This document shows positions 26,291 through 36,629 of a stretch of 37,284 bases of DNA, piece by piece. Source of the DNA: Methanosarcina sp. Ant1 (lineage in GTDB: Archaea; Halobacteriota; Methanosarcinia; Methanosarcinales; Methanosarcinaceae). The notes beneath the pieces are model-generated. The model did not search any database and was not told where the DNA came from. It worked only from the letters and a program-made list of their open reading frames with translations. The stretch lies in assembly GCA_001714685.2 (NCBI GenBank), contig MDTP02000061.1:1-37284 (forward strand). The letters run 5' to 3'. The position numbers and the translations under genes were made by a program. The first letter of the stretch is position 1. The number at the start of each line of letters is the position of its first letter.

Positions 26291-26821
26291 TTGTATCGAG
26301 CAGCAGTTTTTAAGTGGCACAACCTTTTCTAATCTTTAATTTGTTTTGATGCTGATGGAAAACTCAGAATCACTATTAATTGCTCATTTTGGGTACCTGA
26401 ACAGTTATTTAAAGGCTTATTTGTATCTTTATGTACAATTAATTTAATGTATTAATCAAAACGTGATGGGTATATTGATATATTTTCCTGAAAGATCTAT
26501 CCCAGCTTCACCTGTTTCTAAAGGATCTAAAAGGCTGGCCTCCAATTTGTATCATTCTTATTTGTATTATCTGTATAAAGATAGTGATTTTTGTGTAACT
26601 GAAATATAAGAACATTATTATTTCCTCCCCTGTTGAATATGCCCCTTTTCGTCTCTATTTGCATAGTTTCTGCTGAGACAATGAATTGGTTTTGAAATAC
26701 ATACATCAACTCTTCTTTTTTATCGCGGTCATTGATGCATCTCAGTAGACATCTTTTTGAGATTTAGATATCAGTTCCTCTTAATCAATCCCATTACTTC
26801 TTAATCAACCCCCGTAAAGTT

Positions 26822-27118
26822 ATGATATACTCTTCGGTTTCGTTCCTTGGAACTACAGTTAAGCCGCAACCTGTTTTGATCGGGTTCTTACTCAAAACTG
26901 TGCAGGTCTTCGGGAACTTTAAGCTGGTTAGATATAATGTTGAATTCCCTAACATTTATTATATTTTAGGCGTTCTTTCTACAATTGGACCAATTATTCC
27001 AATTTTGATGTCCGATGAGTATCTATATTCAGCTATACTTCTAATTTATATAAACTGTATAGTATTATTATTCCTTACAAATCATACTGTCCAGACATTC
27101 AGACGCAAAGCTTCTTAA
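26822..27118 (+). pseudogene. hydrophobic protein fragment, unrecognised
   Basis: A 98-codon frame with two hydrophobic segments (IYYILGVLSTIGPIIPILM and YSAILLIYINCIVLLFL). No ribosome binding site precedes the ATG. Its last 45 codons lie within the left arm of an inverted duplication; the right arm (27709-27872, minus strand) encodes a broken version in which IYINC and LTN recur around a stop codon. This looks like the remaining tail of a duplicated membrane-protein gene rather than a functional gene. Confidence 0.4.
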
Positions 27119-27155
27119 TAAAAATTAATTAACAGAATCCACTCATCAGAAAAAT
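26985..27155 (+). repeat. left arm of large inverted duplication
   Basis: It pairs with 27709-27872 read in reverse. The innermost 29 bp (27127-27155, starting AATTAACAGAATCCACTCAT) are a perfect inverted match to 27709-27737. Outward, similarity continues in blocks including TTTATATAAACTGTATAG, CTTACAAAT and TTATTCCAATTTT. Confidence 0.8.
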
Positions 27156-27406
27156 TCATTATTTCATAAGATCTATGTAGCTTTCCCTTCTTTATGTGAG
27201 AGTTGACCTCATTTATTGGAATATGTAAAAGTATATATTGTACATTCATGCGTTGACTCTACATTTTTCGCATTATAATTTTTGAATTTTATTTGTTTGA
27301 CTTTATCCAAGTAATTTTTATAAAGTCCCTCTTAATTTTACTATAATGGCTCTCTCTTATCTATAAATGCAAATTCTCCTGGTCACTATGACTTTCATTA
27401 TTAAAA

Positions 27407-27421: not shown

Positions 27422-27708
27422 TTAACATTATATATAAATTATAAATATAATTATCCAGCCCAGTAAAACAGCCCCCTTAGCCATCTTTCTTAAAATGCGA
27501 TGGACAAATTTCTCTGAATTGACCTTCGTTAATTGTTGGCAATTTGTTGCGTTTTTTCTTTTTTCATTGCTTAGCAATCATACTTATCTGCAATATTAAA
27601 ATCACTGTCAATCAAAGGATTTTGGGTAGGCTGAATAGTTACCAGCGCATTTGCATTTTAACTTTTATATAAATCAAGGGAGGCAATATAGACCTTATAG
27701 ATTCATTC

Positions 27709-27872
27709 ATTTTTCTGATGAGTGGATTCTGTTAATTCATTTTTATGAAGAGCTCTGTATCTAAAAATTAAGCGCTATCATTTGTAAGAATTAATAATTC
27801 TATACAGTTTATATAAATTCAAATTCTACCTGTATACCGATACTCATAGAAGAGTAAAATTGGAATAAGTTG
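27709..27872 (-). repeat. right arm of large inverted duplication
   Basis: Reverse complement of the left arm, perfect over the inner 29 bp and diverged further out, reaching about 45 bp before the methionine aminopeptidase start. In the minus direction it encodes a broken tail of the protein fragment at 26822-27118. Confidence 0.8.
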
Positions 27873-27917
27873 ACTCATGATGAAAACGATATCCAAAATA
27901 TCCTATAAGGGATTAAC

Positions 27918-28811
27918 ATGACTGATAATGTGAACAGTAAGCAAGAAATCCTTGAAAAATATAGGGAAGCAGGCAGGATCCTGAAGATTGTCAGGGCTGA
28001 GGCTGTGGAACTGATAAGGGTTGGAAACAGCCTGCTAAACGTTGCGGAATTTGTGGAAAATCGGACTATTGCACTGGGGGGCAGGCCCGCTTTTCCATGT
28101 AATATCTCAAGAAATGATGAGGCAGCGCATGCAACCCCAAAAGCAGGCGATTCTGACGTTTTTGGAAAAGATATGGTGAAGCTTGACCTTGGTGTCCATG
28201 TGGATGGATATATCGCAGATTCAGCTGTGACTGTTGACCTATCAGGAAACCCCGATATTTTAAAAGCAGCTGAGGAAGCCTTAGCTGCAGCCATTGAACT
28301 TGCAAGACCGGGAATCTCTACAGGGAAGATTGGGGCTGCAATAGAGGACAGTATTCGCAGTTATGGCTTAAGCCCAATAATGAACCTGACAGGTCACGGG
28401 CTTTCTCAGTATGAAGCCCATGATGAGCCTTCTGTTCCCAACAAACGCGTAGAAGGAGGAATAATTCTAAGGGAAGGGGATGTGTTTGCAATAGAACCCT
28501 TTGCAACGGACGGAGAAGGACTTATTCATGAAGGCGGGAGCTGGGCTGAGATATATAGCCTTACAAGAAAAAAACCGGTCCGCATGCCTGCAGTCCGAAA
28601 TGTCCTGAAACAGGTAGAAGAATACAGGAAACTACCTTTCGCAAAACGCTGGCTCGAATCCGACAAACTGGATTTTGCATTAATTCAGCTGGAAAAGGCC
28701 GACATTTTTCACTCTTATCCCGTGCTTCTTGAAAGTGCAGGTGGGCTTGTAGCCCAAGCAGAACATACGATAGTAATAACTCAGGACGGCTGTGAAGTCA
28801 CGACAAAATAA
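27918..28811 (+). CDS. map: methionine aminopeptidase, type II
   Basis: A 297-residue archaeal methionine aminopeptidase that removes the initiator methionine from new proteins. Seen: AFPCNISRNDEAAHATP near 58 (substrate-site His), metal-ligand Asp residues in KLDLGVHVDGYIADSAVTVDL near 92-107, His in NLTGHGLSQYEAH near 160, Glu in FAIEPFATDG near 195 and the last ligand Glu in AQAEHTIV near 283. The insertion between His and Glu ligands (about 215-265) identifies type II. The start follows an AAGGGA signal. Its promoter must lie within or beside the inverted duplication that ends about 45 bp upstream. Confidence 0.95.
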   Translation: MTDNVNSKQEILEKYREAGRILKIVRAEAVELIRVGNSLLNVAEFVENRTIALGGRPAFPCNISRNDEAAHATPKAGDSDVFGKDMVKLDLGVHVDGYIADSAVTVDLSGNPDILKAAEEALAAAIELARPGISTGKIGAAIEDSIRSYGLSPIMNLTGHGLSQYEAHDEPSVPNKRVEGGIILREGDVFAIEPFATDGEGLIHEGGSWAEIYSLTRKKPVRMPAVRNVLKQVEEYRKLPFAKRWLESDKLDFALIQLEKADIFHSYPVLLESAGGLVAQAEHTIVITQDGCEVTTK

Positions 28812-29186: not shown

Positions 29187-29864
29187 TTACCCACAGAAAA
29201 GTTACCTCAGAGAAGTGACCTGCGTCAGGAAATCATTAAGGTATTGAAAATTTAAGAAACGAGGCATCCTTTATTTTGATTTATTTATTCTCGTTATCAA
29301 AATTGTGCCATAGGGACAGCAAAATGGAGACCGTTCCTCCTGGACGTGTTCTGAAATAATCTAGGTAACAAATATTTTTTGGAACTAAATAGACGTCCTG
29401 TTTGTGAAAAATGGCTGAGTACATTATAAAATTCCGAAGTTATTTCACGGTGGATCCTTAGTTTTCTCAAGAAAGAAATTCAATTTGAATAAGTTTTCGA
29501 TATTCTGCGCTATCTTCAAAAAATATATGATTAAAAAAAAATAATACGGATAAGAAGGCGATTTGCAAAATATTGGTAAAAAAATTTGAATCTTGTAGAA
29601 AAAGGGAGGATTTAAACTCTTGGGATCCCTCATAAGGCTTTACTGAAATTAGTCAATCAATGATATGATGTGAAGGATTCAAATCTATATACCCCTGTAT
29701 TTCATTGAAATAACGATTCCTTCCCTAATTAAAGATAAAATTGAATTATAAGGCTTAGATAAGAGTTATAAAAGAAATGCCTTGGAAATATATATTCTAT
29801 GTTTTGGAAGAATTCTCTAAAATTATCAAAGACTACTATTTGTAAGGAAAAGTAATTCTATAGA
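29187..29864. other. AT-rich intergenic region
   Basis: Nearly 680 bp with no recognisable gene, RNA gene or clear inverted repeat. Short frames are AT-driven and lack ribosome binding sites. Confidence 0.5.
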
Positions 29865-29938
29865 CTTTATATAATTTAATATATATAGTTAAGTACACTC
29901 ACTGGCACTTAAAAGTTGGACTTTTTTGGGCCAAAAAA
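29865..29938 (+). promoter_or_regulatory. promoter-like region and palindrome before micropeptide array
   Basis: Two overlapping TATA-like boxes (CTTTATATAAT at 29865-29875 and TTAATATATATAG at 29876-29888) are followed by a 17-bp palindrome, TTTTTTGG-G-CCAAAAAA, at 29922-29938. The palindrome would lie close to the transcription start or in the early leader, a good place for an operator. About 180 nt of leader then separate it from the first small gene. Confidence 0.45.
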
Positions 29939-30120
29939 CAAAATGAGCGCCCGATGATTTAGAAAAACTTGCCAAAGTGGGATAAATCGATTGGGGGTAT
30001 CAAGAGAGGGTTTAGTGCAAACATTTAATGGGAGTGTTTTTTCAATAGAAATGCACAGAGATGAGCGTGAACAGAACATAAATAAGTATGAAAGAAATAT
30101 CAAAATCTGGAGGAAATAAT

Positions 30121-30219
30121 ATGGCATTCGGACTTCCTGCATTTAAATTTAATTTTAATATTGGCCAGGTATTTGCACTTATGTCAGGCATCAACGCAAA
30201 TTTCTGCTTAGAATTTTAA
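30121..30219 (+). CDS. micropeptide 1 (32 aa), first of a tandem array
   Basis: A 32-codon gene preceded by GGAGG with 7-nt spacing. The peptide starts MAFGLPAFKF and ends NANFCLEF; it is aromatic-rich (seven Phe), with one Cys, one Lys and one Glu. FKF at residues 8-10 and the C-terminal C-L-E-F echo FKF (also at 8-10) and C-F-E-F in the next peptides, so it may be a distant member of the same family. No signal sequence or family recognised. The ribosome binding site is as good as those of housekeeping genes in the window, which is the main reason to call it. Confidence 0.55.
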   Translation: MAFGLPAFKFNFNIGQVFALMSGINANFCLEF

Positions 30220-30306
30220 TCGTAGTGAATGATGGTTAAGATTAATTAAGCAGTTGGCACATAAAAATTACACGAACAACAACTTAAAAGAGTGGAGGGG
30301 ATTTCA

Positions 30307-30396
30307 ATGGTAAACATAATTTGGTTTAAGTATTCGAACATACAGCTGGCTTTTCAGAAGACCTGCTTTGAATTCTTCCAGTACTGTAAAACGTAA
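30307..30396 (+). CDS. micropeptide 2 (29 aa), paralogue of peptides 3 and 4
   Basis: A 29-codon gene with AGTGGAGGGG before the ATG. The peptide begins MVNIIWFKYSN and ends with FQKTCFEFFQYCKT. Relative to peptides 3 and 4 it lacks one codon near the start (a 3-nt indel keeping the frame), has several conservative changes (Ile/Val, Tyr/Phe) and shares FQKTCFEFFQY exactly. The last three residues differ. That pattern is expected of a translated gene, not of a drifting repeat. Function unknown. Confidence 0.65.
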   Translation: MVNIIWFKYSNIQLAFQKTCFEFFQYCKT

Positions 30397-30480
30397 TCTG
30401 GAACTAATTAAATACTGATATAGACGACCGAAGAGTAAAGGAAAGATCAATAGATACACAAAAGAGTGGAGGGAATTTTA

Positions 30481-30570
30481 ATGGCTCTTAACGTAATTTG
30501 GTTTAAGTTTTCGGACACAAAGATAATGTTTCAGAAGACCTGCTTTGAATTCTTCCAGTACATTTGTTAA
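30481..30570 (+). CDS. micropeptide 3 (29 aa), coding sequence identical to peptide 4
   Basis: A 29-codon gene with AGTGGAGGGA 7 nt before the ATG. The peptide runs MALNVIWFKFSDTK to FQKTCFEFFQYIC; amphipathic, rich in Phe, two Cys (20 and 29), net charge near +1. Coding sequence and about 60 nt upstream are repeated with few changes at 30581-30729, so the pair arose by recent tandem duplication of a 159-bp unit. Function unknown; a regulatory, membrane-active or metal-binding micropeptide are all possible. Confidence 0.65.
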   Translation: MALNVIWFKFSDTKIMFQKTCFEFFQYIC

Positions 30571-30639
30571 ACACTGATAGTAGACAACTGAAAAGTAAAG
30601 AAAGATTAATAGATACACAAAAGAGTGGAGGGAATTTTA

Positions 30640-30729
30640 ATGGCTCTTAACGTAATTTGGTTTAAGTTTTCGGACACAAAGATAATGTTTCAGAAGACCT
30701 GCTTTGAATTCTTCCAGTACATTTGTTAA
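30640..30729 (+). CDS. micropeptide 4 (29 aa), last gene of the array
   Basis: All 90 nt are identical to the gene at 30481-30570, with the same ribosome binding site context. After the stop the sequence diverges and 50 nt later reaches a strong hairpin terminator, which suggests that the array is a single transcription unit ending here. Function unknown. Confidence 0.65.
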   Translation: MALNVIWFKFSDTKIMFQKTCFEFFQYIC

Positions 30730-30779
30730 ACCTTGATACTGGACGACTGAAAAGCAGCGGAAAAGACACAGACCTACGC

Positions 30780-30810
30780 AGTTGCCTGCTCTGCAGGCAA
30801 CTTTAAATTT
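30780..30810 (+). terminator. strong hairpin terminator of the micropeptide array
   Basis: A perfect 10-bp stem (AGTTGCCTGC / GCAGGCAACT) with a 3-nt loop, followed by TTAAATTT. It lies 50 nt after the last micropeptide stop codon. This is the most stable hairpin seen in the window. Confidence 0.75.
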
Positions 30811-35142: not shown

Positions 35143-36629
35143 CAGTAGTTCCGATTTACTGTAGTTCCGACTGACTGCCCTCATTCATTTACAATTTTCC
35201 TTAATAGTTCACAAAAAAAGCCTTCGTTTCTCCATTTTAATTGCATTTTTTATAATGCTCGCTGAAAAATATCAGTATTGTAAAGTTCTTAAGTAGAAAT
35301 TATCCATAGTTGCCACTATCCGGTTTTGTGATTTTTTTTGATTATAATGTGAAATTTAAATATTTCTTAATCGAGTTCGAATAGCTCGATTTCTTCCTCT
35401 ATTAAATTCTATTAAGCAATCCCAAAATAGCTTCACTGGAATGTTGCATAATGACTCGATTCCGCCTGTTACTGCTTTAATAATGTCTTGATTGATTACT
35501 GATTTCATTTGATATGCTGTAATCTCAAGAACCGACTTTAACACATTCAAAATGTTATACATGATACATTGTATTACAAAAAATAGCGTTCTTGCAACTG
35601 GTGATTTAGAGCATGTTCGTATCTTAAAATCATTTTTTACTCTATATCCAGTTTCTATATTCCTTCTTTTTCGATATTCTTCAGGTATCTGTTTTACAAA
35701 TGTGTCTATCAGACCCATTTTTTTATTTGTTGCAAATACCCTTTCTTCTGATCCACATTGCTACAATGTTGAAAGTTGGTCCCCTTCCTGAAACTTATAT
35801 TCAAATACAGTAGACGTATCTCCTTTTTCCTTTCTGTGCTTTTCAAGTATAGCCTTTATTTTTTTGTTGGATTTAGCTGCAATTACAAATTCCAGTTTGT
35901 GCTCATCTATCTTTGAGATAACTTTCCTGTTAAAAAATTCTTTATCTATGTATAATGTTCCCACTTTTACTCCCATTTTTTTCGATTCTTTCAAATAGGG
36001 ATTCCATAAGGGTCGAATAATCTTTGCTTAACCCATTGATATCAATAACATCAAGTGTTAGCTTAGAGTTTCCAATTATATCTAAAGTACAGAAAGAATA
36101 TCCCCATGAAGTTCCATTCTTCGGTTTTATTCCCCTTATACATGGAGTGTCTCTGGTCCCATAATATGAAATATCATGGAAGTCAACAGCAATGTCGTGA
36201 ACCTTGTTTTTAAGATCTATCATCCTAAAACTTCACCATTTATTTTTCGAAATGAAGAAAGAATATTTTCAATAGAATTAGGTTTTATGTAATTAAAAAT
36301 TGTATCAGCTGAAGGAATTCTTATATTTGGTATTTTTGACCTGAGATCATTACTTGCTGATTCTAGAGAATTGGTCGAAGATGTTGCCGCGTGAAGTAAA
36401 ACGTTAAGAAATTCTTGATAGCTGTAATTTGCTTCATCGGGTAAAGTTATTATATTAATGAGACTAAACAATTCAGAAGACACTGCCAGTAAACTGGTTA
36501 TGTCTATATTAGATATGGAGTCGTTTTTCGGTTTCATATTAAGCGACTCCATGATCTTTAATAGCTTTTTTAATTATACCTTCATTTGTAAAAAATGGGT
36601 TTCGGAACTAAGGAGATTCGGAACTACTG
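35143..36629 (-). mobile_element. insertion sequence, ISH3/IS4-like, with degenerate transposase
   Basis: A 1487-bp element. Left end CAGTAGTTCCGATTTACTG and right end (inverted) CAGTAGTTCCGAATCTCC; the 12 outer bases match exactly, and a second TAGTTCCGA 8 bp further in matches too, giving terminal repeats of about 28 bp. Flanks GAAGT and GAAAT differ at one base and may be a decayed 5-bp target duplication. The single transposase gene fills the middle on the minus strand. Confidence 0.75.
35356..36552 (-). pseudogene. ISH3/IS4-like DDE transposase with two frameshifts and an in-frame UAG
   Basis: Four consecutive frames together make one transposase of about 395 residues. Part 1 (36220-36552) is the N-terminal helical region. 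Part 2 (35942-36223) has the first catalytic Asp in AVDFHDISYYG. Part 3 (to 35761) has the second Asp in GTLYIDKEFFN, and part 4 (from 35718) the Glu in EEYRKRRNIETGYRVK, close to the Y-R-E-K signature. Parts 1 and 2 overlap by ATGA and differ by -1. Parts 2 and 3 differ by +1 at a run of seven A. Parts 3 and 4 are the same frame, parted only by a TAG at 35761-35763, which Methanosarcina could decode as pyrrolysine. Probably inactive. Confidence 0.75.

Follow-up and report, generated by a model that had tools for sequence, protein, structure and literature searches.

To our knowledge, archaea have yielded few examples of peptide weapons or signals, or of structural micropeptides. Among bacteria, the ldr and ibs families of type I toxins in Escherichia coli consist of tandem copies of small hydrophobic peptides and have a narrow taxonomic range. 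Aureocin A70 of Staphylococcus aureus is made up of four small, related, unmodified, hydrophobic peptides secreted by the ATP-binding cassette (ABC) transporter AurT, and the phenol-soluble modulins are very short leaderless peptides whose ABC transporter both exports them and protects the producer (PMC10941976). In the genus Methanosarcina, much work has been devoted to the small proteins of M. mazei (PMC11456600, PMC12774963, PMC13370731); they include MtrI, MtrR, sORF_05 and sORF_06 as well as 314 short open reading frames detected by ribosome profiling (Ribo-seq), half of which span at most 30 amino acids (PMC11456600). Here we describe a tandem array of four micropeptide genes in Methanosarcina sp. 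Ant1, located on a stretch of 37,284 nucleotides (contig MDTP02000061.1, assembly GCA_001714685.2; the whole stretch is referred to as the window). Comparative sequence analysis indicates that the window very probably contains one locus of a genus-wide, translated and co-regulated Methanosarcina micropeptide regulon.

At this locus, a single promoter precedes one gene of type A and several of type B in tandem, with strong ribosome binding sites throughout. The promoter motif recurs before a neighbouring gene of type C, and more motif-linked peptides are found elsewhere in the genome. By analogy, the nearest working counterparts are aureocin A70 and the phenol-soluble modulins, without a family match to either. 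As in aureocin A70, several small leaderless peptides are encoded together, and an ABC transporter of the MacB type, whose genes adjoin the array in most species but not in that of the window, may serve them; in contrast to aureocin A70, the array is archaeal, comprises at least three non-homologous peptide types under a regulon promoter, and contains type A and B peptides that are not strongly cationic, with no immunity gene found. The phenol-soluble modulins share the very short leaderless peptides and the ABC transporter link, but are bacterial amphipathic helices, whereas the peptides described here match no family and are linked to an exporter by gene neighbourhood only. Neither Pfam nor NCBIfam yielded a match for the type A, B, C or Gly/Cys-rich peptides, to known bacteriocin families or otherwise, which strongly supports the view taken in the preliminary description of the array that no such family has been described. 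The M. mazei small proteins are likewise unannotated short genes of the same genus, some of them membrane-associated, but the descriptions searched mention neither tandem arrays of types A, B and C nor a promoter common to them, and the supplement may list single copies. The open-access texts searched contain no published description of such arrays or of the promoter, and single members may be included in supplementary lists.

The four frames follow directly behind GGAGG motifs (spacing to the ATG of 7, 8, 8 and 8 nucleotides for peptides 1 to 4) on one strand and behind one promoter, forming an operon of several leaderless peptides of 29–32 amino acids. The array anatomy first read from the window, with four frames of 29–32 codons in one direction, GGAGG 7–8 nucleotides upstream and a perfect 10-bp hairpin at the end, was confirmed, as was the origin of the identical coding sequences of peptides 3 and 4 from a 159-bp duplication (direct repeat of 158 nucleotides, 96% identical, spacing 159 nucleotides). 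No cluster of four GGAGG-preceded frames of 20–40 codons within 700 bp on one strand occurred in 300 resamplings of the window under a dinucleotide model, and the whole window contains 6 such frames compared to a mean of 1.05 in the resamplings. A chance origin of the frames was rejected based on these resamplings and on the amino-acid constraint in relatives. One hairpin of this kind was found where 0.5 would be expected by chance. No gene preceded by a Shine-Dalgarno sequence lies directly behind it, and no regulated gene was found downstream on the same transcript.

Selection on the peptides was assessed by redistributing substitutions at random over each sequence in 2000 simulations to obtain a neutral expectation. 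In type C, nine pairs show 38 amino-acid changes compared to 53.5 ± 3.4 expected under neutrality, and in type B, 21 within-array pairs show 84 compared to 111.3 ± 4.6; neither count was reached in any of the 2000 simulations, with the pairs being not fully independent. Within arrays, the ratio of nonsynonymous to synonymous substitution rates (dN/dS) is 0.06–0.65. Thus, dN/dS among relatives is not near 1 but shows a bias against amino-acid replacement, and purifying selection acts on types B and C at the protein level. Within the window, peptides 2 and 3 do differ by the reported in-frame 3-nucleotide indel close to the start, but their conservative changes are neutral-like (7 amino-acid changes from 10 substitutions vs. 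6.6 expected). Selection was therefore not accepted from the window alone, and its support comes from the relatives. Together with the homologues described below, which were found across the genus with conserved frames and lengths and retained start signals, this bias points to conserved small proteins that are very probably translated.

Within the genus, the array DNA as a query gave few matches. A protein search combined with an inspection of short frames behind GGAGG in the matches revealed the same anatomy in other species, and the upstream region (29820–29920) was a better bait, which in many genomes recovered the promoters of arrays of this kind. Profiles of the three peptide types were searched against 186 Methanosarcinales genomes (31 Methanosarcina and 155 others). 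Type A heads the array (consensus FGFNLSQ-FFTF-NNLGF) and is present in 21 of the 31 Methanosarcina genomes at an expect value (E) <= 0.01 and in none of the 155 others. Type B follows in 1–7 tandem copies per main array, mostly of 25 codons (consensus M-FS--YS-V---YEAT-FKFFYC), with 101 matches at E <= 0.05 in 23 of the 31 genomes and a best match of E = 0.003 in the other 155. Type C is a single gene about 0.7–1 kb beyond the array (consensus FFYLSYTKIT--IQII-LKI-YISG-G---R), found in one copy each in 23 of the 31 genomes (E <= 2.7e-14), including Methanosarcina sp. UBA289, UBA402, UBA5 and UBA8098; its best match in the other 155 genomes (E = 8e-4) has internal stop codons. Based on these searches, all three types are restricted to the genus Methanosarcina, with none convincingly found in the 155 other genomes.

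The multi-copy family of translated archaeal micropeptides proposed earlier is strongly supported; peptides 2–4 belong to type B and recur across the genus. The idea that peptide 1 is a distant relative or diverged copy of the others was rejected, as it matches the separate, positionally conserved type A family heading the array in 21 genomes. The type C gene is a third member of the system in the window, beyond the four frames first noticed; the common promoter and the ABC exporter link were likewise absent from the preliminary description. The variable copy number of type B (1–7) would fit dosage amplification. In one genome (G025), four tandem 32-amino-acid peptides of an unrelated type (MFDTLIGIGNFAIQTAT...) occupy the A/B position (L114, 11362–11880) with type C still downstream, which reads as a replacement of peptides in a fixed locus. 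A second array locus (L187–L191 and L081; genomes G009, G023, G008, G001, G010 and G020) has type B-like peptides followed by Cys/Trp/Arg-rich ones, as exemplified in G001 by MCCGFGFNNWGWGFRHRFWGRGCGCGWGGGCGGWGGC (twice) and MCFFFFRFICIRIRCCVPRFYWRCC. A plasmid or viral origin was also considered and rejected; the array has no plasmid match and type C has no relatives in viral contigs.

Types A, B and C have a common promoter motif. In an alignment of 20 promoters, the TAAGGA box, the TTCTAT box, the TATA box (TTATATAA...TATATATAG) and the subsequent CACTG and leader are strongly conserved, and transcription probably starts near CACTG. The array unit ends in the hairpin and begins further upstream than first described, at the promoter (29834–29891). 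Internal TATA boxes are absent from most type B arrays, which fits a single polycistronic transcript. A 58-bp promoter matrix with fixed spacing did not recover the type C promoters. The 42-bp matrix used in its place scored 14 sites at more than 14 bits on the two strands of seven loci (about 270 kb scanned), which had been picked for their peptides or for similarity to the promoter, and none in shuffled sequence. In micropeptide loci, nearly all of these sites lie 110–470 nucleotides before a GGAGG-preceded micropeptide, type C included.

The pattern TAAGGA-N7-TTCT-N7-TTATATAA, matched exactly at 29843–29874, was counted in all 31 genomes allowing at most one mismatch, yielding about 120 sites in 28 genomes compared to 5 for the reversed pattern. 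The three genomes without any site (G007, G022 and G024) all lack the A, B and C peptides, and G013 and G016, in which A, B and C are also absent, have one stray site each that does not precede a micropeptide. Thus, promoter and peptides come and go together across genomes, with peptides present in 26 of the 31. Forty further regions were picked by the motif pattern alone and read. Among the sites selected by the pattern, 43 have an intact TATA box, and at 24 of these a GGAGG-preceded micropeptide follows within 480 nucleotides vs. 6 of 80 other TTATATAA sites, a comparison whose significance is inflated by orthologous sites.

Further motif-linked members include W/G/C/R-rich peptides of 29–33 amino acids and G/C/F/Y-rich peptides of 51–81 amino acids, and many of the Gly/Cys/Trp-rich peptides share a conserved C-terminal ITAVRACKIKG. 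Rows of motif sites precede Gly/Cys/Trp-rich micropeptides of 31–71 amino acids at loci L260 (G004), L263 (G005), L281 (G014) and L277 (G012). Where the TATA box carries a mismatch, the genes behind the sites encode an alpha/beta hydrolase, a chagasin-type inhibitor and further secreted proteins instead, and such sites may represent a different promoter class. At nine loci (L261, L279, L285, L262, L278, L284, L266, L286 and L287), a variant TATA box ending in TTATATAT or TTATATAC is located 180–250 nucleotides before genes of these kinds (alpha/beta hydrolases among them), possibly representing the same or a sister regulon.

The gene neighbourhood of the array is similarly recurrent. A MacB-type ATPase gene adjoins the array in 22 of the 23 genomes with type C, all but that of the window species, in most genomes as part of a full operon encoding the ATPase, a CARDB-domain secreted protein and an FtsX-like permease, and 16 of these genomes have an ABC-2 permease gene on the other side of the array. 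The array–exporter link thus appears strong but not obligatory. In the window, the array adjoins a methionine aminopeptidase gene. Through a large inverted duplication (Table 1), the type C promoter has a second copy about 100 nucleotides before this gene; no micropeptide was found behind the duplicated promoter, which in this species may have taken control of the aminopeptidase gene. Elsewhere in the window, short adjoining frames at 35356–36552 (minus strand) look like fragments of a broken transposase gene.

Table 1. Features of the micropeptide locus in the window (contig MDTP02000061.1)
Feature	Position	Strand	Remarks
Array promoter (TAAGGA box, TTCTAT box, TATA box TTATATAA...TATATATAG)	29834-29891	+	65.3 of max 89.3 bits
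Leader (5' untranslated region), about 220 nucleotides	29899-30120	+	sequence conserved among 18 loci
GGAGG ribosome binding site of peptide 1	30109-30113	+	7 nucleotides before ATG
Peptide 1 gene, type A, MAFGLPAFKFNFNIGQVFALMSGINANFCLEF	30121-30219	+	ATG frame, 32 amino acids; type A profile E = 3.3e-5
Peptide 2 gene, type B, MVNIIWFKYSNIQLAFQKTCFEFFQYCKT	30307-30396	+	ATG frame, 29 amino acids; type B profile E = 3.5e-8
Peptide 3 gene, type B, MALNVIWFKFSDTKIMFQKTCFEFFQYIC	30481-30570	+	ATG frame, 29 amino acids; type B profile E = 1.2e-6
Peptide 4 gene, type B	30640-30729	+	ATG frame, 29 amino acids; coding sequence identical to that of peptide 3
Two tandem 158/159-nucleotide units with peptides 3 and 4	30438-30754	+	direct repeat, 96% identity
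Terminator-like hairpin, perfect 10-bp stem, 3-nucleotide loop	30780-30802	+	T-rich tail weak
Type C micropeptide gene, MFLYFSYTKITIFIQIIQIRMIQIGGQPFRSFRNR	26508-26615	-	profile E = 6.4e-17; GGAGG upstream
Type C promoter, motif as in array promoter	27045-27086	-	31.2 bits; 85% identical to array promoter over 41 nucleotides
Inverted duplicate of type C promoter, upstream of methionine aminopeptidase gene	27776-27817	+	33.2 bits
Methionine aminopeptidase gene	27918-28811		
Inverted repeat, long arms	26961-27086 / 27776-27901		126 nucleotides at 75%
Inverted repeat, short arms	27113-27204 / 27660-27751		92 nucleotides at 79%

The peptide set spans 20–80 amino acids, occurs in tandem copies and usually lies beside predicted export pumps. 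One promoter motif and export-pump neighbours suggest peptides made in bulk that act at the cell envelope. A regulatory, membrane-active or antimicrobial role was suggested earlier; judged by their genomic context, the peptides are more probably exported or membrane-active than regulatory. A transcription factor acting at the TAAGGA/TTCTAT boxes would switch on the regulon, and the polycistronic mRNA would direct the bulk synthesis of short, aromatic-rich, leaderless peptides, as suggested by the many gene copies and strong Shine-Dalgarno sites. The peptides would then exit the cytoplasm via a MacB-type ABC exporter, whose genes adjoin the array in nearly all species but lie at another genomic site in the present one. 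Their joint action, at the envelope or beyond it, would resemble the operation of multi-peptide leaderless bacteriocins or phenol-soluble modulins. We regard bulk synthesis, export and envelope action of leaderless peptides as tentative, at somewhat less than an even chance, and the explanation as a whole, including the regulon, as likewise somewhat below even odds.

Several observations weigh against this explanation. The MacB operon of the window species stands alone on another contig (C94) without an array, the array of G017 is likewise not beside an ABC operon, and the ABC genes may be mere neighbours of the array. The peptides lack both leader and signal sequences, an immunity gene was not identified, and the neutral-expectation test was applied to related sequences and overstates significance. 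With a mean net charge of -0.65 and +0.53, respectively, types A and B are close to neutral, in contrast to most membrane-killing peptides; the strongly cationic character of leaderless bacteriocins is thus missing from both, and only type C is cationic (+3.35). An alternating, beta-strand-like pattern common to all three types was rejected, as only type A alternates, type B has a helical moment and type C neither, with AlphaFold predicting a single helix for type C (predicted local distance difference test score, pLDDT, of 77) and giving a poor, unreliable model for type A. Composition does not decide between toxin, coat and intracellular-regulator readings.

The peptides might alternatively be building blocks of a structural or self-assembling coat in or on the envelope rather than toxins, with the aromatic- and Cys-rich types A–C and the Gly/Cys/Tyr/Trp-rich low-complexity peptides contributing, for example, to aggregates, an outer matrix or resting cells. 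Such a coat would be consistent with the sharing of one promoter motif by peptide classes of unrelated composition, as well as with 22–34% aromatic residues in types A–C, about 6% Cys in type B, the resemblance of the Gly/Cys-rich members of 51–81 amino acids to low-complexity coat or matrix proteins, and an array copy number suited to bulk synthesis. However, the peptides lack signal peptides, high Cys and Gly content alone is unspecific, and the AlphaFold results (a single helix for type C, a poor model for type A) do not favour assembly into a coat, which we consider unlikely. Small membrane proteins that are retained in the cell and tune membrane complexes have precedents in M. mazei, namely MtrI, MtrR and the ammonium-transporter small protein (PMC12774963, PMC13370731, PMC10714827), and type C, a single-copy gene modelled as one long hydrophobic helix, would suit this role. 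Yet tandem amplification, fast divergence and the A/B replacement in G025 are unlike subunits of conserved complexes, and MtrI is a 68-amino-acid stand-alone gene across Methanosarcinales (PMC12774963), whereas types A, B and C are genus-restricted; such a function is rather improbable for the set.

Like ldr and ibs, the array consists of tandem, small (25–35 amino acids), hydrophobic peptides of narrow, genus-restricted range, which raises the question of a type I toxin–antitoxin system (ldr/rdl or ibs/sib type) with each toxin held off by an antisense RNA. Unlike in these families, no TATA-like promoter in antisense orientation occurs within the units or between them in 13 of 16 type B arrays, one shared upstream promoter serves the whole array, and the motif of this promoter is common to A, C and other peptide types, making a toxin–antitoxin function very improbable. 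Finally, a regulatory RNA or leader peptide, with the frames incidental or serving attenuation, would account for the conserved sequence of the leader, but is highly improbable given the amino-acid constraint on the peptides, a unit ending in a hairpin without a downstream gene, and a leader for which neither a consensus fold in 18 aligned sequences nor an Rfam match was found; a structured RNA leader was rejected on these two results.

With an exported, envelope-acting peptide set as the preferred explanation, these results extend an odd single locus to a defined regulon, made up of genes that annotation has missed, in a model genus of archaea that includes several complete genomes. The promoter motif could readily serve as bait for the regulator, and translation could be tested on the Ribo-seq and peptidomics data that exist for M. 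mazei (PMC11456600). The regulon may even be a dedicated social or envelope peptide system, in which one transcription factor controls a whole set of leaderless, partly tandem-amplified, MacB-exported micropeptides, with types A, B and C and the Gly/Cys/Trp-rich peptides as four or more unrelated kinds. This is doubtful, but if true, archaea would possess a multi-peptide weapon, signal or coat of a class without a known counterpart.
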